A stretch of DNA of 33,000 bases, taken from assembly GCA_021786375.1 (NCBI GenBank), contig JAJYNL010000083.1:1-33000 (forward strand), in the 5' to 3' direction. The notes under the pieces are model-generated. The model saw only the letters and a list, made by a program, of their open reading frames with translations, was not told the origin of the DNA and made no database searches. Shown here piece by piece: positions 23,717-33,000 of the stretch. The stretch comes from Actinomycetes bacterium. Its GTDB lineage: Bacteria > Actinomycetota > Acidimicrobiia > Acidimicrobiales > Acidimicrobiaceae. Both the position numbers and the translations under genes were made by a program. Within the stretch, counting starts at the first letter, position 1. Every line of letters starts with the position of its first letter.

Positions 23717-23832
23717 AGGCCAATGTTACGCGTCAGCTCAGCGAAGGTGACCGCGGAGGGATCCGGGGTGATGAGGCACGCGACACACGTGCGCACCATC
23801 GAACGGCGTCCGCCGCTGCCCTCGGGTGCTTG

Positions 23833-24075
23833 TCAGGGGCTGATCCTGGTGAGGGTGCCCGCGCCGTCGTTGATGACCCACGCAGTGCCTGCGTAGACGC
23901 CGAGGGTGTCCGGCACGATATTCCCGGTCGCGGGGAGCTGTGCCTTGTCGCTCATGGTCCCAGCCGTGGCAGCGATCTTGGCGAGGAGGCCGGCGTCGGA
24001 CCCGTATGGCGGGGCGCTGCCCAGCGCCCAGACCGATGTGCCGTCGGTGGAGACGAAGGTCATCGGGAGGCCGGT
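23833..24075 (-). pseudogene. 3' fragment of a propeller-like secreted-protein gene
   Basis: About 80 codons that end in a natural stop at 23833-23835. The text reads like the last blades of a repeat/propeller protein: FVSTDGTSVWALGSAPPYG, then AWVINDGAGTLTRISP, the latter being the 'vWV.n.g.gtvtrIdp' pattern of NHL or lyase-type beta-propellers. To the right of about 24075 the same frame turns into antisense of a serine recombinase and loses all sense, so the 5' part of the gene was probably removed when the recombinase piece arrived. Confidence 0.4.
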
Positions 24076-24610
24076 GTCGTCGAAGCCCAAGTCGAGCAGC
24101 TCTACGAGCCCATCCAGCTCCCCAAGCCCTGGCTGAAGCGGCTGCGCGAAGAGCTGAAAGCCGAGATCACCGCTCGCCAACACCGCAACGCCGCCGAGCG
24201 CGAGTTCCTCGTCCGCAAGCTCGCCAAGGCCGAGACGGAGCGGCGCAAGCTCCTCGACGCCTACTACGCGGGCGCCATCGACGTCACCACCTTGAAGGCC
24301 GAGCAGGCCCGCATCGCCACCGACGTCCGCGGTGCTGAAGAACGACTCGCCGCCGTCGCCGCCCACCTGGCCGAGTGGCAGGAGATCCTCGAGGCCGCCA
24401 TGCGCTTCGCCACCAACTGCGCCAGGGGCCTACGCCCGAGCCTCCGCACCCACCCGGCGGCGGTTCAACCAAGCCGTCTCCACCCGCATCGACGTGCGCG
24501 ACGGCAAGATCGCCAACGTCGGGTACCACCCGCCGTACAACATGCTCTTTTCTTCGAGCGAGTTCGAATACGGCGATCTGGTGGTCTCGCCGGGACAGTT
24601 GTCGAACTCT
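24076..24610 (+). pseudogene. serine recombinase, C-terminal remnant with a frameshift
   Basis: From about 24076 the frame reads VVEAQVEQLYEPIQLPKPWLKRL, then a long coiled coil (ERRKLLDAYYAGAIDVTTLKAEQARIA... AEERLAAV) and WQEILEAAMRFATNCA. This is the C-terminal coiled-coil part of large serine recombinases after the zinc ribbon. At 24422-24432 the homology moves to the next frame, as if one base had been inserted, and continues with GAYARASAPTRRRFNQAV and IDVRDGKIANVGYHPPYNMLF, a typical recombinase tail. The resolvase and zinc-ribbon domains are missing. It cannot make an active recombinase and marks an old integration or excision event next to the defence operon. Confidence 0.75.
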
Positions 24611-24721
24611 GGCATAGGCCAGGTGCAGGGTTCTCATACGGATACTTTGGTGGTCCTTGCCCGACTCTTCTCGAACTCGACCCCGTCGCCACTGAAGAGG
24701 GCGCTATCCGCTTACGGCAAT

Positions 24722-25093
24722 TTGGGTCGTCAAGCGCCCTTCGATCGTCGACTGCTACAACCCATCCAACGATCAGTACGACTCAACGACGTCCAAGTGA
24801 AACGCCTCGCCGAAGGCTACAGAGAGGGAGAAACCACCTACGAGCTTGCGGGCCGCTTTGGAGTCGATCGCCGTACGGTCTCGACACGGCTCAAAGAATA
24901 TGGGGTCTGGTTACGCCGCCAATCGCCAACTGATGCGATGGTGGGCGACATGATTCGGCTATATGCCTCGGGACTGGCTGCAGAACAAACAGCCGAACGG
25001 GTCAGCGTTTCAGCAGACACGGTACTCAACCACCTAAGGGCAAGCGGCGTCAATCGCCGCGCACCGGGCAGGCCGCACAAGACGTTGGAGTAA
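24722..25093 (+). CDS. double helix-turn-helix protein linked to the recombinase remnant
   Basis: About 123 residues from a TTG at 24722; the frame is also open back into the recombinase tail, so the start is uncertain. Two HTH units are visible: LNDVQVKRLAEGYREGETTYELAGRFGVDRRTVSTRLKEYGV, and DMIRLYASGLAAEQTAERVSVSADTVLNHLRASGV. Small proteins of this kind are common beside serine recombinases in actinobacteria and resemble the DNA-binding end of Hin-type resolvases. It may control or assist recombination, or be the worn end of a longer protein. It converges on the DUF2130 gene with eight bases between stops. Confidence 0.55.
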   Translation: MGRQAPFDRRLLQPIQRSVRLNDVQVKRLAEGYREGETTYELAGRFGVDRRTVSTRLKEYGVWLRRQSPTDAMVGDMIRLYASGLAAEQTAERVSVSADTVLNHLRASGVNRRAPGRPHKTLE

Positions 25094-25101
25094 CACATCC
25101 A

Positions 25102-26445
25102 TTACTCCGAGTCATTCGAATCGTCAGTTTCCAGCTCGGCAAGCTTGGCTGTCATTGTCGGATTGCCTCTGGTCAGCCTCTTTATGGTCAAGTCGCCAGC
25201 TTTGTTATTCGCGAGCCGGAGATTGTTCTCCGACCCGAGCAGCGCTTCTTTGGTCTTTTGGAGGTGATCGATCGTCTTGTCAATCTCATCGATCGCCGTC
25301 TTGAACTTCCTGGAGGCTAGCTCATAATTCCGCGCAAAGCCGTTCTTGAAAGTTTCGAGCTCCTTCTCAAAGTTCGTGATGTCGATGTTTTGCTCCCGCA
25401 CCTTCGCGAGCTCGGTCTTGTACGCGAGCGTGTTCTGCGCGGCGTTTCGCAGGAGGGTGATAATCGGAATAAAGAATTGGGGGCGCACAACATACATTTT
25501 CGGGTAACGGTGAGACATGTCGACTATGCCACCGTTGTAGAGGTCGTTATCTAGCTCCAGCAGCGAGACGAGCACTGCATATTCACACCCCTTCTCGCCG
25601 CGGTCCTTGTCTAGCTCCCTCAGGAAGTCCTCGTTCTTCTTCTTTGTCGCCGTCGTATCGATCTCATTCTTCATCTCGAACATGACGGAGATGAACTCTG
25701 TGCCGGCCTCATCAAAGTCCCGGAAGACGTAGTCCCCCTTGCTTCCACGGCGAACGTCGGTGTCCTTCTCGAAGTAGGCTCGTGGGAACGCGGTTGCCCG
25801 AAGCCGGTTGAACTCAATCTCGCAGTGCTGCTCAAGGGTTTCACCGACCATCTTGGTCGAGAGCTTTGCCTTCAAGTCGCGTAGACGCTCAATGGCTTCG
25901 TCTCGGTCCCTTATCTGCGTCTCGTACTTGTCCTTGAGGGACTTTTCGAGAAGCTGCCTCTCCAACTCTGCCTTCTCCACGCCACTCTTGAGTTGGTCGC
26001 GCTCCTTCTCGAGCTCGGCTACGGCGTCCTTGACAGCAAGTTGCCTTACGAGTTCAGTCGAATCGAGTTCGGCTCTCAGTCGCTCGACCTCGGTCTCGCG
26101 CTTCGCCGCCTCCGCGGCCAACCTTGCGGCCAGTTCGTCGCGCTCCTTCTCAAGTGCGAACAGGGCATCCTTGATCGCAAGCTGTTGTGCGACCTCTCCC
26201 GACTTCAGTTCCGCCTTCAGTCGTTCGATCTCCAGGTCCTTCTCGGCAGCCCGTGCTTCGGCCTCCCTAACAACCTTCGCTTCGGCAAGCTCTATCTCCG
26301 CCTGGTTCTTCTGTGCTGCGAGCTCTAGGCGATCATGAAGTTCAGCCTCAAACTCGCGATCACGAACCTGCTTCAAGATATCGGCGTAACCCGCCTCGTC
26401 CACCTTGAACGCTTTTCCACAATGCGGGCAGGTGATCTCATGCAT
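25102..26445 (-). CDS. DUF2130 protein: coiled coil plus PD-(D/E)XK-like domain
   Basis: 447 residues from the ATG at 26445. The N-terminus is [20 protein letters not shown], a half zinc ribbon with C6 and C9. A long Glu/Lys/Ala-rich coiled coil runs from about 25 to 205, with repeated blocks of the form [16 protein letters not shown]. The DUF2130 core follows: [22 protein letters not shown] with D238, then FEMKNE with E257 and K259. G-D-x(18)-E-x-K is the spacing of the PD-(D/E)XK nuclease motif, so a DNA-cutting role is plausible but unproven. It ends with a second helical stretch. The start overlaps the stop of the ATPase gene by eight bases and has GGGA upstream; a longer form from 26478 is possible. 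Last gene of the defence operon. Confidence 0.85.
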
Positions 26446-28870
26446 ATTCTGTCCCACTTGTTGGGGTGTCTTTTGCATCACTTTGGTAATCTTGTGCCTC
26501 GCCAACAGCCTGCGCTTCCAGGATCAAGTGAGTAGGCTCAATGCCGACAAGCGCGCAGAGTCCCTCGAAGTGCTCCTTATCTACGACACTCATAAATGTG
26601 AACACGGACGCCAAGACGGGCTTGATCTCATCCGGATTAACAGCCACGTCTGTTTCAGGAGATTCGGCATGCGAGTACCCGTGCGTGAAGCGGGTCAGGT
26701 GGAGACGCAAACCATCGGCGTTGCCTTCATAACCGAGAGCCTCCAGCTGCTCACCAGCGGTTCGCATAGCTTCAGTGAACTTGCCCGCCGTGGTCGGGTA
26801 TTTGAACGCAAGGAATGTCTCCAGCATCCTGCGAAGCACGTTGGGGTACAGCAATAGTGCGTCAAGCTTGGTCTCCATCGAGTCGTCATCGGCCATCGCA
26901 AGATGTGCGCGTACAGAGGTGATGAATGCGTGGTGGTATGCGGAACGGACCTTAAGTCGCGTCTCTTCATTGGGAGGCCATGCAATGAAAGCGGGTACCC
27001 GCTTGTAGGCACCGCCGACCCTCCGATGCGGGGCGACTAGTTCGTAGCAGTTCGAAGTATAGCCCTTGCTGTTGCTCGGCCCGCGCTTGCCGTTTAGACC
27101 GTCAATTTGGATATCCCATTGGCGAAACAACTCGAAGTTATGGGTCAGCAGGAACACTTGCTCGGTGTGTTCCTTGGCAACGGTCTCGGCCCAGATGTAA
27201 GTCGAGATGCCCATGGCCGAGTTGCTATCAAGGCTGGAGACCGGATCGTCAATCACGACGATCGGCTTGCTTTTGGCCGCCTGGCTCTTCTCCTTGACAT
27301 TCTGCAAGAAGTGGATCAGCGTGATGGCTGTGCGCTCACCTGTGCTCAAGTCACGAGCTGGGGCACCGTGACGTGTAATCCGGTAATGCTTCCCATCGGG
27401 CAACAGCTCGAAGCCCAACTCGTTTCGTCCAAGAATGCGGGTCAGTTCACGTGACATCACCTCGGCGCTGGGCAACGGATCGCCCTCGACGTTCTCCAGG
27501 CTCGCAACCTCTTCGTTGTGCTGCTTGATTGTTGATTCAAGGCCGGCCTTCTTCGTAGCTTTCTTCTTGGCGTCCTCAGTCAACTCATTGATGCGATCTT
27601 CTGCTTCTTTCAGCAGGTGCAATTCAACACGTTTTGCTGATTCCTTGACCAACTCTGCGTGCTTGGCCACTCGTTCGTTGTGGTCGGCAACTAGTTGCTC
27701 AAGCTTTGAGCCATCGGTCTTCGGTGATTCGGTGATCTCATACTCGACCTGCCCGACGACATTCGAGCGCTTCTTGTCAAGGGCTCCCAGCAGGCCTGAA
27801 ATCCACTTGCCAAATTCGATCACTTGTTTCTTGGCCGATTCGTGTTCGGTTTTGAAATTCGTCGCCAGGTCATCGAATAACGAGCCAGCCAGTGTGCCAT
27901 CGCCCAGCAAACCCGTCAGCGACGTCTGCATACCCTTGACCTCACGGATGAGCGAGTCGAGCTGGCGCTGTAGGCGCTCGACTTCGTCTGAGAAGTGCTG
28001 CTCGATCCGCCGCTTCCGCTCGTCAGTGAGAATACCCCCACAATAGATACAGATATCTTTGCCTTCGTGAAGATGACGGCCCCGCTCGACCCATGAAACG
28101 GCTTCTTCGTGGTCTATAAGGGTGTCCAGCGCGACTGAAACTGGTGACTCCGATAACAGTCTCTCGGCGTCGGTCCGAAGGTCGCCTCGAACGGTCAACG
28201 AATACGACCTAGGCGTGATTTCGGCCTTGTTATCTGAGTTGACAGTGGCGAGGTCCGCGGTCTTCTTGGCGTCATCAAGCAATGCCCAAGCTTCATGGGA
28301 GCCCGCGAACTTACGTTTTGCTACACCTTGGTTGTAGTTCGAGTTCGATGCGTACTCACCACCAGCCCTGCTGAGCAAGTTGACCACTCCCCGGGCAATA
28401 GTGGTGTACTCATCCTCCAGAGCTTTAGCACTGGTAACGGCTTCGGAGGTGGCTATAGCAAGCTCCTTCGCTGCTACACCAGTCAGTCGTTTGAGTTCCT
28501 CGATGCGCTTTTCGTCTTCAACTGTTTTCTTGCCCAACGTCAGTACGGCCTCGACCTCGGTGTCCCCATCGAAGTTATGGCTGTCCTTGACGTACCTTTC
28601 GCTGAACACAAACACTCGGTCGAACTCATCGATGTGGTTCTGCCTACTGGTGACCGAGCCAGAGCCATCCGGCTTACTCACGGTGATAGAGACGTTGGCG
28701 TACCCACCAGCTTCGGCGTTGATTCCATCCACAGCCCTTGACAGCGAGGTCTTACCGGAGCCATTTTGGCCATAGATCAGGTTGATGCGCTCGAAGTCGG
28801 GAACACTCGAATTCCATCGATAATCCTCGAAGATCCCGCAGCCTTTGATCGAGTCGAAGCGCCTGAGCAT
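26438..28870 (-). CDS. AAA_13 ATPase, PrrC/RloC-like
   Basis: 810 residues from the ATG at 28870, five bases after GGAGG and overlapping the res stop by one base. It is an SMC/ABC-type ATPase split by coiled coils: Walker [10 protein letters not shown] (34-42, K40), ABC signature LSTGE (508-512), Walker [14 protein letters not shown] (D541, D542) and an H-loop LLTHN (H577). Between the two halves sits a CIYC motif (C274, C277) as in AAA_13 proteins, which may bind zinc when two chains meet. The C-terminus has [18 protein letters not shown] (R680-x3-E684) and RFTHGYSH (R727, H730, H734), similar in layout to the Arg-Glu-His anticodon-nuclease site of PrrC/RloC. In PrrC such a nuclease is held silent by a type I system; here the partner would be the type III enzyme. 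tRNA cleavage is inferred. Confidence 0.85.
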
Positions 28871-31836
28871 CACAACCTCCAGTCGCCCGGTACGGAGACC
28901 GCATAGTTCGGTACACCAATCGCTTCAAAGTGCTTACTAGCCGCTTTGATCTTGGCGTTCTCGGTGGGACGTCGCTTCACCTCGTCGAGTGTGGACTTCG
29001 TTTCCCGAATCATATACACGCGGTCTTGCCCGTCCTCGTGCTTGATGATTGCCCAGTCGGGGTTGTAGGGACCGACGGGCGTATCGATCTTGAACTTGCC
29101 AGGTAGTTTCATGAAGAACTTGACATCTTCACGCCCGTCAAGAATCTCAGCGAACTCGCGCTCCGGTGTAGATTCGTAGACAACATAATCAAAGTCCGAC
29201 TTCTCCGGATTCCGCAACTTGTACATCTGGTCTAGGAAGCGATCTTTCTCCTCGAGTCCATCCTTTTGAAGCTCGCGCAACTCGTAGACGTAGCCTCCGA
29301 TCTGCTCGTACTGGATTCCCTCCGTGACGATTTCGGCGAGCACGGCCTGCAGACGTGCCTTGACCATCTGAATGAAGTCGTTCGGGTTGCCGATGAATTC
29401 CGAAAGCCGGCCACAGTCGAGCAGGATATCGATGATCGTCTTGCGGGTCAGCGAAGTCTCCTCCTGCAGCTCGGTGATGATGTCGGGCAAGTCGTAACAG
29501 CCCCTCAGATCGGCGGAACGCTGGCCAGTCTCGATGGCCTTCGCTCCTCCCCGGAGAATCTTCACACCGGCGCGAGTGACCTGAATGCGAAGCGGCTGGA
29601 CCTCGGGCGCTTCCCTTATGGCCTTCACGGTCTTCTTGATCAGGTCATCACGATCGACTGCGACGTGATAAGTCGTGCGCCGAGCGATCTTGTGCCAGAA
29701 CTCCTCGAAGCCAGGATTGGAGAACAGCTCCTTATTGAGGCGACGTGGATGACGCGCGGACTGCGGCTTGACGTAGCGCGCCATGCTGGTACGCCCAATG
29801 GCGTCAGTAATCTCGGCCTCGTAGGGCTTGAAGAAGTCCGGCACATACTCTTTGAGATCAAACCAAAGCTGGCCCGGCTGGTACTTTGCAGTAACCTTGC
29901 CATCCTTGATTAATCCCGACGACTCAAGGGCCTTGTAGAGCTCTTTAGAACGTTCGAAGCCAAAGTATTCGGGTCCATTCGGCTCGATATGTTCCTCGTA
30001 CAGAGCAATTCGGGAGAACTCCTGTGGTCGCACCCGACCGATCTCGACACCCGACTTCTCGTACTCAGTCTGCAGTGACTTGGCAAAGTTCTGATACGAC
30101 TCGTTGGCGACAACGGTTAGTTGGGCGATGCCTTGATCAGCAACGCGCTCTCCGCCCTGATCGACTGGTAAACGCAGACCCCGACCGATGGTCTGGCGGC
30201 GCTCTATCTCCGCACCCATCTCTCGAAGCGTGCAAATCTGAAAGACGTTCGGGTTATCCCATCCCTCGCGCAGAGCTGAGTGACTAAAGATAAAACTCAC
30301 AGGCTCGGCCTGGTCGAGCAGCCGCGCCTTGTCACGCATGATGAGGTCGTATGCATCATCATCGGCCTTAGTTGCCCCCGAAGTATCTTGGAATGTGTCG
30401 GAGGCACCGCGTTTACCTTTAAGAACGGAGAAGTAGCCGCGACGCAGTTCGGCTGGGCTTTGCGGGAACAACTCTTGCCACTGAGGCGACTTGGCTCGCT
30501 CTTCGTGAAACAACTCATCGAACCACTCCACAAACCGGCCGTTGGCATCTATGTTGTTGACTCCCTCCCCCAGGAAATGCTCGACCTTGTCGATGAAGAA
30601 CAGGCTTAACACTTTGATACCACGGCCAGCCAACACCGTCTGTTTCCGGAAATGCTCCTTTATTGTCTCGCGAATCATCTCGCGATAGATCGACTCAGAG
30701 TTGCCACCGATCTCGCCGCCCAGCTGAAGCTGGCCATATTTGTTGATCTCCACGTACTGCGGCTCAATGGAAAGCTCGGTGATCCACCAGCCCTCGTAGG
30801 CGGTGTTCCCCGTGAGGTTGGAGAGTTCCTGGTTCTGCTTAGCCTTGACCACTCTGCGCGAGAGTGAGCCATCAGCGACACGCACGGCGAGTTCCAGTTT
30901 GGCTTCCCACGGGTCGCGCTTGATGTCGACAAGTTTGATGTAGGGCATCGCATCCGATCCCCTTTGTGCAACTTCAGCAACCACAATTTGTTTGACGAGT
31001 CCCATATCGTGCGCGTCAACTGGGTCAAGGCGGTACACAACATTGCGTTGCTTGCGGTGAGTCGCTGAGTATCGGAACGTAGCTAACGGATTAAGTTCCG
31101 CAATCGACGACTGTGACAGCTGCGACTCCATGTTTTGTGGCTCGTCCATGATGACAATTGGATGCGTAGCCTTGAGATAGTCGATCGGGCGAAGGCCATT
31201 CAACTTGTCCCGGTATTGGTGGATGATGCGAGAATTTGCGTCGCCGCGGACCGAATCGATGGTGATGACCATGATCTGCACGTTGGTACTAGTAGCGAGG
31301 CCCTGGACCTCTTCAGCCGACTTGCCCGAGTACACGGTGTAGTCAAACGGATGGGACGGGTAGAGTTCGCGGAAGTGCTGACGCATGAGCTTGATGCTGG
31401 TGGTGACGCCTTCCTTGATGGCAACACTTGGCACAAGGATGACGAACTTGGTGAAGTTGTACGACTTGGCCAACTCGAACATCGTGCGCAGGTACACGTA
31501 GGTCTTGCCCGTACCGGTCTCCATCTCGATATCAAAGTCGAGAGCATCGCCCGCGAGGGTCTCACTCACCTCGAGTCCATTCCTGTCCTGCACACTTTGC
31601 AAATTATGTAGGATCGCAGATTGATCGAGAAGAAGTTGGTTGCCGACCGCGCCCACCTCGGAGTCAATATCAATGCCGAGTCGTGGCTGGGGATCGTTGT
31701 CAAGCGCGATCCGCCCTCGCAGAGTGGTAACAAGTTTCTCGACGTCGTAAGGTTGACCATCGAAAAGCTGGATGACCGACCGGATGGCTTCGAGCTGATA
31801 CTGCTGATTGGGGTCGAATTTGAACTTCATGCTCAT
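28870..31836 (-). CDS. res: type III restriction enzyme, Res (helicase-nuclease) subunit
   Basis: 988 residues, the usual Res length. SF2 helicase motifs are in order: METGTGKT (105-112, K111), a DEPQ box at 231-234, SATH at 257-260, HSALREGWDNPNVFQICTL, and QTIGRGLRLP starting at Q548. The C-terminal endonuclease carries PD at 926-927 and E945-T-K947 (PD-x17-ExK), followed by the typical tail. All catalytic residues I can check are present, so the subunit looks intact. Res cuts DNA after ATP-driven communication between two Mod-bound sites. The ATG at 31836 overlaps the mod stop as ATGA, and the res stop overlaps the ATPase start, so it sits in a tightly coupled operon. Base composition is lower in G+C than the genes on the left of the window. 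Confidence 0.95.
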   Translation of the reverse strand: MSMKFKFDPNQQYQLEAIRSVIQLFDGQPYDVEKLVTTLRGRIALDNDPQPRLGIDIDSEVGAVGNQLLLDQSAILHNLQSVQDRNGLEVSETLAGDALDFDIEMETGTGKTYVYLRTMFELAKSYNFTKFVILVPSVAIKEGVTTSIKLMRQHFRELYPSHPFDYTVYSGKSAEEVQGLATSTNVQIMVITIDSVRGDANSRIIHQYRDKLNGLRPIDYLKATHPIVIMDEPQNMESQLSQSSIAELNPLATFRYSATHRKQRNVVYRLDPVDAHDMGLVKQIVVAEVAQRGSDAMPYIKLVDIKRDPWEAKLELAVRVADGSLSRRVVKAKQNQELSNLTGNTAYEGWWITELSIEPQYVEINKYGQLQLGGEIGGNSESIYREMIRETIKEHFRKQTVLAGRGIKVLSLFFIDKVEHFLGEGVNNIDANGRFVEWFDELFHEERAKSPQWQELFPQSPAELRRGYFSVLKGKRGASDTFQDTSGATKADDDAYDLIMRDKARLLDQAEPVSFIFSHSALREGWDNPNVFQICTLREMGAEIERRQTIGRGLRLPVDQGGERVADQGIAQLTVVANESYQNFAKSLQTEYEKSGVEIGRVRPQEFSRIALYEEHIEPNGPEYFGFERSKELYKALESSGLIKDGKVTAKYQPGQLWFDLKEYVPDFFKPYEAEITDAIGRTSMARYVKPQSARHPRRLNKELFSNPGFEEFWHKIARRTTYHVAVDRDDLIKKTVKAIREAPEVQPLRIQVTRAGVKILRGGAKAIETGQRSADLRGCYDLPDIITELQEETSLTRKTIIDILLDCGRLSEFIGNPNDFIQMVKARLQAVLAEIVTEGIQYEQIGGYVYELRELQKDGLEEKDRFLDQMYKLRNPEKSDFDYVVYESTPEREFAEILDGREDVKFFMKLPGKFKIDTPVGPYNPDWAIIKHEDGQDRVYMIRETKSTLDEVKRRPTENAKIKAASKHFEAIGVPNYAVSVPGDWRL

Positions 31837-32936
31837 GCGGTCCAGAGTTCGATTCCCTTGCTCTTGCATAGTTGGGCGAGGTTCGTCTTCAGTTCATCGT
31901 CGCCTTGGAAGGCATCTTCGAGGATGATGAACTTCCCAGGTTCGGCATCCACAACAGAACGGAGCTGCCCTAGAGTCGGTTTGGTGCGCTCGTCAAGGTA
32001 GGCGATCAGAAGGCCATCGCCAACAGACTGAATCGGCAACCCATCGATTTCCTCGGTCGCGACCTCCTCGGTAAGCGAGTAGCCCTGCTTGAGAAGCACC
32101 TCGGCGAGGAGCGCTCCTGCCGTGGCGTTTTCGACTGCAGAATCGCGCAAGTCGAGAAGGTGCTGCTCCAGCGATCCGGGCTCGACATCACTGAGAACGC
32201 GCCACTTTGAGAAGTTGGTGTCGGACAGTTGGAATGCTCGGAATCCCATATCAAGATGTGTTGCGTCAAGTTGTAACTGGCCAGTGTGCTCGGCAGCTAA
32301 CTTCTCTCCGGCAAGACTGATGCGCCGACGAGCGATTTCCGCGATTGTCTTGTAACCTGCCATTCGTGCGGGAGAAGACTCTGGCGTCGGCTCGGGCAGT
32401 TGTACCATTATGAATCGGCGCGAACCACCATCCTTGGCATTCAGGGACATAACGGCATGCGCCGTGGTAGCAGAACCGGCGAAGAAGTCAAGAATCACGT
32501 CATCAGGGCCCGTCACCATGTCGACTAGCGACTCGATCACTAATTCGTCCTTAGGATAGTCAAAGACACCCTCACCCATTAGATTACGAAGGCGCTTGGT
32601 TGCGGCACGACCGTCCTGATAGAAGACGCTGTAAGCCGCTTCGTACTCAGTATCCTTTAGGTAGCGCTTAAATGTCGGAACTGCGTTTTCATCTACGCCA
32701 AAGACGACACGGTCATTGGCAATATGCTCTTTCAGGACAGCCTCCTGAAAGAGCCATCCCCTAGATGGCGCTTTGACGGGTTTGCCGGTAATTGGATGAA
32801 GCACGTCGTAGTTTGGGCCGCCGCCGCCAGGCCACGAGATGTTGTCCGGGAAATACACACCTCGAACATCAATCTTCGAATAGTGACTGTTGCGTTTTGC
32901 TTCGTCCGAGTCGGAGCTATGCGGGAATCTTGTGTA
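31833..32936 (-). CDS. mod: type III DNA methyltransferase, Mod subunit; C-terminal part only
   Basis: The readable frame gives about 367 codons. It shows the middle and end of a beta-class N6-adenine methyltransferase: PDNISWPGGGGPNYDVLHPITGKPVKAPSRGW, SVFYQDGRAATKRL and the SAM-binding motif LDFFAGSATTAHAVM. The catalytic DPPY motif, which precedes these in the class, is not seen. Homology appears to extend upstream of the only start codon (GTG 32858) through KRNSHYSKIDVRG to about 32930, but a TAG at 32937-32939 stops the frame. So the gene is either cut off there, or disrupted by a nonsense or frameshift change with the rest beyond the window. A fragment starting at 32858 would lack catalysis. 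The 61 bases beyond the TAG, to the window edge, hold no part of Mod I can recognise in any frame. Confidence 0.8.
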   Translation of the reverse strand, partial: YTRFPHSSDSDEAKRNSHYSKIDVRGVYFPDNISWPGGGGPNYDVLHPITGKPVKAPSRGWLFQEAVLKEHIANDRVVFGVDENAVPTFKRYLKDTEYEAAYSVFYQDGRAATKRLRNLMGEGVFDYPKDELVIESLVDMVTGPDDVILDFFAGSATTAHAVMSLNAKDGGSRRFIMVQLPEPTPESSPARMAGYKTIAEIARRRISLAGEKLAAEHTGQLQLDATHLDMGFRAFQLSDTNFSKWRVLSDVEPGSLEQHLLDLRDSAVENATAGALLAEVLLKQGYSLTEEVATEEIDGLPIQSVGDGLLIAYLDERTKPTLGQLRSVVDAEPGKFIILEDAFQGDDELKTNLAQLCKSKGIELWTA

Positions 32937-33000
32937 CTAACCCCGCAGGGCGGAGGCTTTGGAAGCTGGTGGCAAAAGGCTTTCGATCCGGCTGAGAATC

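Follow-up and report, generated by a model that had tools for sequence, protein, structure and literature searches.

A rare operon variant with a predicted RloC-type nuclease and a DUF2130 protein behind a type III restriction gene in an Acidimicrobiaceae genome

The window analyzed here, the whole of a 33,000-nucleotide stretch (positions 1 to 33,000 of contig JAJYNL010000083.1, GenBank assembly GCA_021786375.1, from a member of the Acidimicrobiaceae), ends in four co-directional minus-strand open reading frames (ORFs). The ORF list, Pfam, and PADLOC identified them as mod (N6_N4_Mtase/MTase_III), res (ResIII/REase_III), an ATPase gene (AAA_13/PDC-S06), and a DUF2130 gene. A preliminary description of this DNA had the four genes joined by overlaps of 4, 1, and 8 bases, and we confirmed this arrangement using downstream start codons; with the earlier starts of the mechanical ORF list, the overlaps become 37, 4, and 68 bases. 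The mod/res overlap reads ATGA (Res start at 31836), the single base shared by res and the ATPase gene lies in TGATG (ATPase start at 28870), and the ATPase and DUF2130 genes share ATGCATGA (DUF2130 start at 26445). The features are as follows.

25102-26445, minus strand: DUF2130 protein, 447 amino acids (aa), ATG at 26445; PF09903; start set by the 8-base overlap and by aligned homologues
26438-28870, minus strand: RloC-type ABC ATPase and predicted anticodon nuclease, 810 aa, ATG at 28870; PF13166 (AAA_13), PADLOC PDC-S06, and motifs
28870-31836, minus strand: Res, type III restriction subunit, 988 aa, ATG at 31836; PADLOC REase_III, EcoP15I Res match, and motifs
31833-32936, minus strand: Mod fragment, C-terminal half, with homology over 31836-32912; motif I present, DPPY half absent
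32915-33000, minus strand: repeat of about 86 bp at the contig end, abutting the mod break point; two more copies on contig C91

The operon has a GC content of 0.55 versus 0.655 in the first 23.5 kb of the window. Its res frame was intact, and TGTGKT, DEPQ, and PD...ETK were all found, so that helicase motifs and the endonuclease domain are both present. The product matched PADLOC REase_III (856.1 bits), RE_endonuc (112.5 bits), and EcoP15I Res (4zcf; E value of 4.8e-56, spanning positions 78 to 620 of the 999-aa ORF).

The ATPase matched PF13166 (488.6 bits) and, over its full length, PADLOC PDC-S06 (421.1 bits). In the part of PMC2610378 available to us, RloC is defined by the pattern R-X3-E-X36-52-H, often with a Ser before the His, by a CX2C hook, and by a length of 658 to 897 aa; the accessible part of PMC3710099 assigns the nuclease domains of PrrC and RloC to HEPN. 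The window protein has the Walker A, CxxC, signature, and Walker B sequence motifs together with a triad that reads, in the numbering of the 810-aa protein, R680-x3-E684-x49-H734, with S733 before the His. In an alignment of 49 of the 81 available RloC sequences, R680, H734, C274, C277, and the core ATPase residues were invariant, and E684 was at least 90% conserved. The ATPase thus agrees with the published definition and is RloC-type, a predicted anticodon nuclease, which makes more exact the earlier suggestion of a PrrC/RloC-like protein; at 810 aa and with a CxxC insert, it falls outside the description of PrrC (341 to 416 aa, no zinc-hook insert).

The structure model of the ATPase, with a mean predicted local distance difference test score (pLDDT) of 85.2, has a Rad50/SMC-head fold within residues 1 to 645, C274 and C277 being located between the Walker A and signature motifs in a mostly helical insert. 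One such fold match was 5da9 (Z score of 16.2, 252 aligned residues, root mean square deviation of 3.7). The C-terminal domain is helical in the model, and the listed fold matches span residues 1 to 645 only; solved structures of PrrC or RloC were not among the fold rows listed, which is no evidence of their absence. A PDB sequence search with RloC alone gave no match, and the profile search returned mainly Rad50, SMC, AriA, and ABC-transporter ATPases, with some coiled-coil matches.

For the genomic context of RloC, the best 80 loci of at least 308 relatives were inspected using neighbor profiles for Res, Mod, HsdR, HsdM, HsdS, and DUF2130, which were seeded from the window and plasmid L044 and extended on the collected loci. 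Type I restriction-modification (R-M) genes lay on the RloC strand in 19 of the 80 loci (two of them supported by an HsdS-type match alone), several overlapping hsdS or hsdR, and on the opposite strand in two. Type III Res stood beside RloC in three. The nearest relative, from Cryobacterium (L083; RloC at 62%, Res at 68%), has the order SNF2 helicase-mod-res-rloC, and its res/rloC junction is a 1-base TAATG overlap like the TGATG of the window (TRATG in both). A Verrucomicrobiae metagenome-assembled genome (MAG; L095) carries helicase-DUF4391-one small gene-mod-res-rloC, followed by an AAA_23 ATPase, while in a Polaromonas MAG (L110) DUF2130, two other genes, RloC, Mod, and then Res follow one another on the same strand. 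On a tree of all 81 RloC sequences, the type III label, window included, needed three changes, all forced by starred branches; the tree was built by a quick method and rooted at its midpoint, with L110 on a long branch, and the changes may be gains or losses alike. The placement of these predicted nucleases in type III operons recurs in several unrelated lineages. The nearest RloC relatives suggest an actinobacterial host for the window.

A single-protein query of viral contigs (viral_contigs) with RloC found no match. The RloC-type loci collected from IMG/VR (best 80 of 88) had Res within 6 kb in 4 cases, type I genes in 11, and neither in 65; two of the latter, L265 and L277, have a helicase-DUF4391 pair just downstream, and in the L265 contig mod and res come next. 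When loci were anchored on Res (best 80 of 124, 79 distinct), AAA_13 was present within 6 kb in 3 of 79 (L338, L346, and L365), the match in L365 being weak and L338 and L346 lying on contigs already counted among the four Res-bearing RloC-type loci. The catalytic His is kept at the aligned position in the window, L083, L095, L110, L045, L274, L098, and L103. The zinc-hook AAA_13 ATPases of the type III operons L346, L369, L290, and L365 lack this His at the aligned position, and L365 lacks the aligned Arg as well; the idea that every type III-linked AAA_13 protein is an anticodon nuclease did not hold. A loose pattern finds R-x3-E...H with another His in L295 (on the L346 contig), L265 (on the L369 contig), L290, and L365.

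We also observed a recurring extended type III operon, composed of an SNF2-type helicase, DUF4391, mod, and res plus an interchangeable RloC-type or OLD ATPase at varying points, in four loci.

L095, 890-12280: DUF4391 by Pfam match
L041, 3119-15531: DUF4391 by similarity
L346, 2475-16655: DUF4391 by similarity
L369, 1623-13048: DUF4391 by similarity

The literature searched (outside which lie most subscription journals and all preprints) held no paper combining DUF4391 with a helicase and restriction.

With moderate confidence, we favor reading the four-gene unit of the window as a horizontally acquired defense operon in which the predicted RloC-type nuclease lies behind type III res and DUF2130 behind RloC. 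What the sequence shows directly is the order and overlaps of the genes, the RloC motifs, an intact Res frame, a truncated Mod, and a deviating GC content. Three points weigh against the reading. Fold support for the ATPase stops at residue 645, short of the expected C-terminal HEPN domain. In 56 of the 80 genome loci, RloC had no Res or Hsd neighbor by these profiles, other R-M types lying outside them; in 12 of the 56 the flank is shorter than 5 kb on at least one side, and a Mod-type methylase is close to RloC in L100, L133, and L156. R-M linkage is therefore not required for RloC. Finally, Mod, a fragment as assembled (see below), may be whole in the living cell should the contig end be misassembled.

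The preliminary description had proposed mod-res-AAA_13-DUF2130 as a conserved unit. We found this order only in the window: it was absent elsewhere among the best 80 of at least 308 RloC genome loci and from the 80 RloC-type (best 80 of 88) and 79 Res-anchored (best 80 of 124) loci of IMG/VR, and the proposal did not hold. All four families come together on one strand, otherwise arranged, in two unrelated loci, L110 (above) and the IMG/VR contig L346, where the order is helicase-DUF4391-...-mod-...-res-DUF2130-AAA_13 and the last pair overlaps by 14 bases. Since the DUF2130 protein and ATPase of L346 are divergent and the latter lacks the aligned His, they are convergent company and no orthologous unit. 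The 80 RloC genome loci contain a single DUF2130 neighbor, and its locus is one of the 3 with type III Res; the 79 Res loci likewise contain a single one, at one of the 3 with AAA_13. Each coincidence has a chance of about 0.04 (3/80 and 3/79) and was spotted post hoc. As for the concern that the ATPase and DUF2130 genes might stand beside res only in close relatives, the answer lies in between: the ATPase-res pairing extends beyond such relatives, and DUF2130 with such an ATPase and res is very rare, though not unique.

The distribution of DUF2130 bears on a reading that we regard as quite possible but somewhat less than likely, namely, that it is a widespread, mostly solitary gene caught downstream of the island and functionally unrelated to RloC and Res. 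Across 396 genomes of the window's phylum (its own included), DUF2130 was found in 29, the ATPase in 5, and Res in 47 (many of them short helicase matches). Except in the window's own genome, no two of the three lay within 30 kb in this sample, the closest pair being DUF2130 and Res in G249, about 37 kb apart. At an E value of 1e-20, DUF2130 was present in 15 of 299 genomes from the phylum of the Polaromonas MAG, 5 of 239 from that of a Clostridium MAG, and 25 of 238 from that of Mucilaginibacter; the Polaromonas and Mucilaginibacter samples include their own positive center genome, which was left out of locus inspection. We inspected 17 chromosomal loci in the window's phylum (28 other genomes matching), 15 in 14 genomes of Pseudomonadota, and 20 in Bacteroidota and Bacillota (16 from the Mucilaginibacter phylum and 4 from the Clostridium phylum). 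R-M genes lay within 5 kb of DUF2130 in 0/17, 0/15, and 3/20 of these loci, and an OLD/RloC-like ATPase in 0/17, 1/15, and 0/20, all neighbor counts for DUF2130 being raw, without a matched random background. A DUF2130-R-M linkage as a chromosomal rule was rejected on these figures (R-M genes in 3 of 52, ATPase in 1 of 52); in chromosomes, DUF2130 is mostly solitary, as an unrelated passenger would be. The Cryobacterium draft genome, which also speaks for a passenger, gave no DUF2130 match, and DUF2130 is therefore optional.

Harder to reconcile with mere hitchhiking are the 8-base coding overlap of DUF2130 with rloC, the presence of all four families in L110 and L346, and the neighborhoods of DUF2130 in mobile elements. 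Here, 24 loci were considered, 8 plasmid records picked by eye from 60 and all 16 IMG/VR loci. R-M genes were found within 5 kb in 3/8 and 3/16, respectively, and an ATPase in 2/8 and 4/16, so that 10 of the 24 had R-M genes or an OLD/RloC-like ATPase within this distance; in 7 of these the gene lies no more than 100 bp away on the DUF2130 strand. Some of the matches follow from the design: L041, L165, and L178, which supplied the ATPase queries, and L044, which supplied the type I seeds, are DUF2130 loci themselves and had to match. When the matches of the three ATPase queries to themselves are discounted, the count falls to 9 of 24; L165 and L168 are near copies. The arrangements include mod-res-DUF2130 with a 12-base gap (L171, type III by PADLOC), hsdM-AAA_15-hsdS-hsdR-DUF2130 (L178), helicase-DUF4391-OLD-DUF2130-mod-res (L041), and DUF2130-AAA_13 ahead of a type II system (L045).

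Two further arrangements of DUF2130 were observed. An OLD-type ATPase lies directly beside it, from overlapping to 23 bases apart, in L165 (8106-11410), L168, L166, L041, and L193, which come from IMG/VR contigs, a plasmid, and a chromosomal contig; Pfam assigns AAA_15 plus an OLD-like TOPRIM to the ATPases of L041 and L166, and those of L165, L168, and L193 were classed as OLD-type by similarity. In L213 (10586-17505), a type I locus reads hsdR-hsdS-357-aa ATPase-hsdM with a DUF2130 gene adjoining on the other strand, and the small ATPase is PrrC-sized, with a weak match to the RloC profile (26 bits).

The mod gene, taken as whole in the preliminary description, turned out to be a fragment. 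Its 341-aa ORF (from 32858) covers only positions 286 to 616 of the 621 of the type III methyltransferase profile, and in the whole open frame (31833-32936) homology to the Cryobacterium Mod starts at residue 283 of 652, at 32912. Motif I (DFFAGSA) is kept and DPPY, located at residues 125 to 147 in all five relatives checked, is absent, so that the pair expected of a complete Mod was not found; an assembly effect may explain this. The missing half was sought across the assembly (estimated 95.3% complete) and not found, a weak match on contig C26 being rejected as a separate complete methylase in surroundings of 0.64 to 0.65 GC. Because the contig stops at 33,000, an assembly artifact at its end is possible, and "truncated" therefore applies to the sequence as given. 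The assembled Mod lacks its catalytic half, which probably leaves the type III core defunct; RloC and DUF2130 would then need to act without it.

The repeat of about 86 bp has three copies in the assembly, at 32915-33000 of the window and twice on contig C91 (L217 2838-2924 and 5784-5866, both 77% identical), where the copies bracket a GmrSD-type (DUF262) restriction gene. It is possibly a recombination site used by defense genes. A structured element at the repeat was dropped as a candidate, none of the three copies folding better than shuffles (z of 0.22, 1.01, and 0.96). That recombination at the repeat cut mod and that the remainder is being lost seems to us rather unlikely. Half of mod is gone and the break coincides with a repeat flanking another defense gene, but the frames of Res, RloC, and DUF2130 are open with their motifs present, and the contig end may be unreliable.

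On its other side, the operon is adjoined at 23830-25093 by overlapping plus-strand open frames, one of them with an HTH_23 match. Part of this region, without a profile match, we take to resemble the C-terminal region of serine recombinases, and it is perhaps the remnant of a mobile element.

The DUF2130 protein matched PF09903 at 303.7 bits (cutoff of 26.7) and carries CPHC at its N terminus. In a 15-row alignment, G237, D238, E257, and K259 were invariant, including in the divergent, 25% identical protein of L110. The model derived from this alignment (mean pLDDT of 74.2, predicted template modeling score of 0.36) has a long helix (residues 30 to 216), strands at 224-227, 239-244, and 250-256, and then a helix and more strands, with D238 and E257-x-K259 at strand edges. 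Fold comparison placed Can2 (Z of 7.7), EcoT38I (7.5), a Bax1 complex (7.2), and McrBC (7.1) at the top, all below 8; the top 12 rows (Z of 7.7 to 6.3), which also include BstEII and BsaWI, are all, as we presume, PD-(D/E)XK nucleases, and from rank 13 other folds are mixed in (WspR, EutV, and RNA polymerase subunits). The best Foldseek E value was 0.18, a PDB sequence search with DUF2130 alone gave no match, and the profile search returned weak coiled-coil-type matches only (best E value of 0.024). The invariant D238 and E257-x-K259 together with the model bear out the earlier view of a predicted coiled-coil PD-(D/E)XK protein, for which the fold matches are suggestive, not proof.

Such a protein might cut DNA together with an SMC/OLD-type ATPase, as a Rad50-Mre11-like module plugging into R-M operons, which we consider unlikely. 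The two genes are adjacent on the same strand in the window, L045 (92-base gap), L041, L165, L166, and L168 (overlap to 2-base gap), L193 (23-base gap, ATPase second), and L346 (14-base overlap), and the long helix with a PD-(D/E)XK-like core would suit the role. Against this, only 1 of the 52 chromosomal DUF2130 loci inspected has such a neighbor, L165 and L168 are near copies, L041, L165, and L178 were themselves the source of the ATPase queries, and every fold match of DUF2130 has a Z below 8. The broader idea of a portable break-sensing module, a Rad50-Mre11 analogue repeatedly inserting into type I and III operons, strikes us as improbable; if true, one sensor in the window would drive both DNA and tRNA cutting.

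Under the favored reading of an acquired defense operon, RloC would be latent, restrained by its own ATPase/zinc-hook domain, and would fire on sensing DNA ends such as those left by Res cleavage or by breakage that a phage induces. The predicted anticodon nuclease would then cut tRNA and translation would stop. Coupling to Res would thus co-express a suicide enzyme with an enzyme that makes or fights DNA breaks, and DUF2130 would be an optional accessory, most likely DNA-acting and possibly working together with the ATPase. In the available part of PMC3874168, inducers of DNA breaks switch on the RloC of Acinetobacter baylyi even when the host is R-M deficient. A PrrC-like guard, in which the type III complex silences RloC until phage inhibition of Res or Mod frees it, is a doubtful alternative: the genes are coupled much as prrC is in hsd loci, type III linkage recurs in three distinct parts of the RloC tree, and the window and L083 share the 1-base res-rloC junction, but Mod is truncated in the window as assembled, the A. 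baylyi enzyme responds to breaks without R-M (PMC3874168, in part), and 56 of the best 80 genome loci have no Res or Hsd neighbor. The working type III guard proposed earlier is accordingly unsupported in the source genome, mod as assembled lacking its catalytic half, and the locus offers no evidence of PrrC-style release on antirestriction; relatives that retain a complete mod, L083 among them, could have such a guard.

Of the known systems, the closest are the RloC proteins of Geobacillus kaustophilus and A. baylyi, to which the window protein is likened by motifs and size: it has the same ABC motifs, CxxC, R-x3-E-x49-H with Ser, and size range, and it differs in sitting behind a type III res and overlapping DUF2130. 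The full-length match to PADLOC PDC-S06 (421.1 bits) carries an "S" number, which we take to mark single-gene candidates, whereas the window gene lies in an operon. Compared with EcoP15I-like type III R-M, the Res match and the mod-res order are alike and the window Mod lacks its DPPY half. PrrC of type Ic hsd loci likewise joins an anticodon nuclease domain to an ABC ATPase tied to an R-M operon but, in the accessible parts of PMC2610378 and PMC3874168, is 341 to 416 aa long, has no zinc-hook insert, and belongs to type Ic loci. Davidov and Kaufmann (2008, PMC2610378) already placed RloC with type I or III R-M in 8 of 73 cases, and the principle of RloC-restriction linkage is therefore not new; type III linkage is on record there, with no DUF2130 partner mentioned in the part of the paper available. 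The literature searched describes no RloC-DUF2130 neighborhood, names DUF2130 and type III restriction together in no paper (its DUF2130 titles are not on defense), and combines PF13166 with restriction in none. Of the composite defense unit first proposed, the RloC-type ATPase in type III operons and the meeting of four families in two other loci stand, and the fixed unit does not. The operon is genuine, a rare variant of the known coupling of RloC to restriction, and no fixed new system: its ATPase belongs to the predicted RloC-type nucleases that occupy type III operons at three places in the tree, beside the commoner type I linkage, and it singles out DUF2130 as a predicted coiled-coil nuclease that occurs in mobile elements next to genes for R-M and ATPases.

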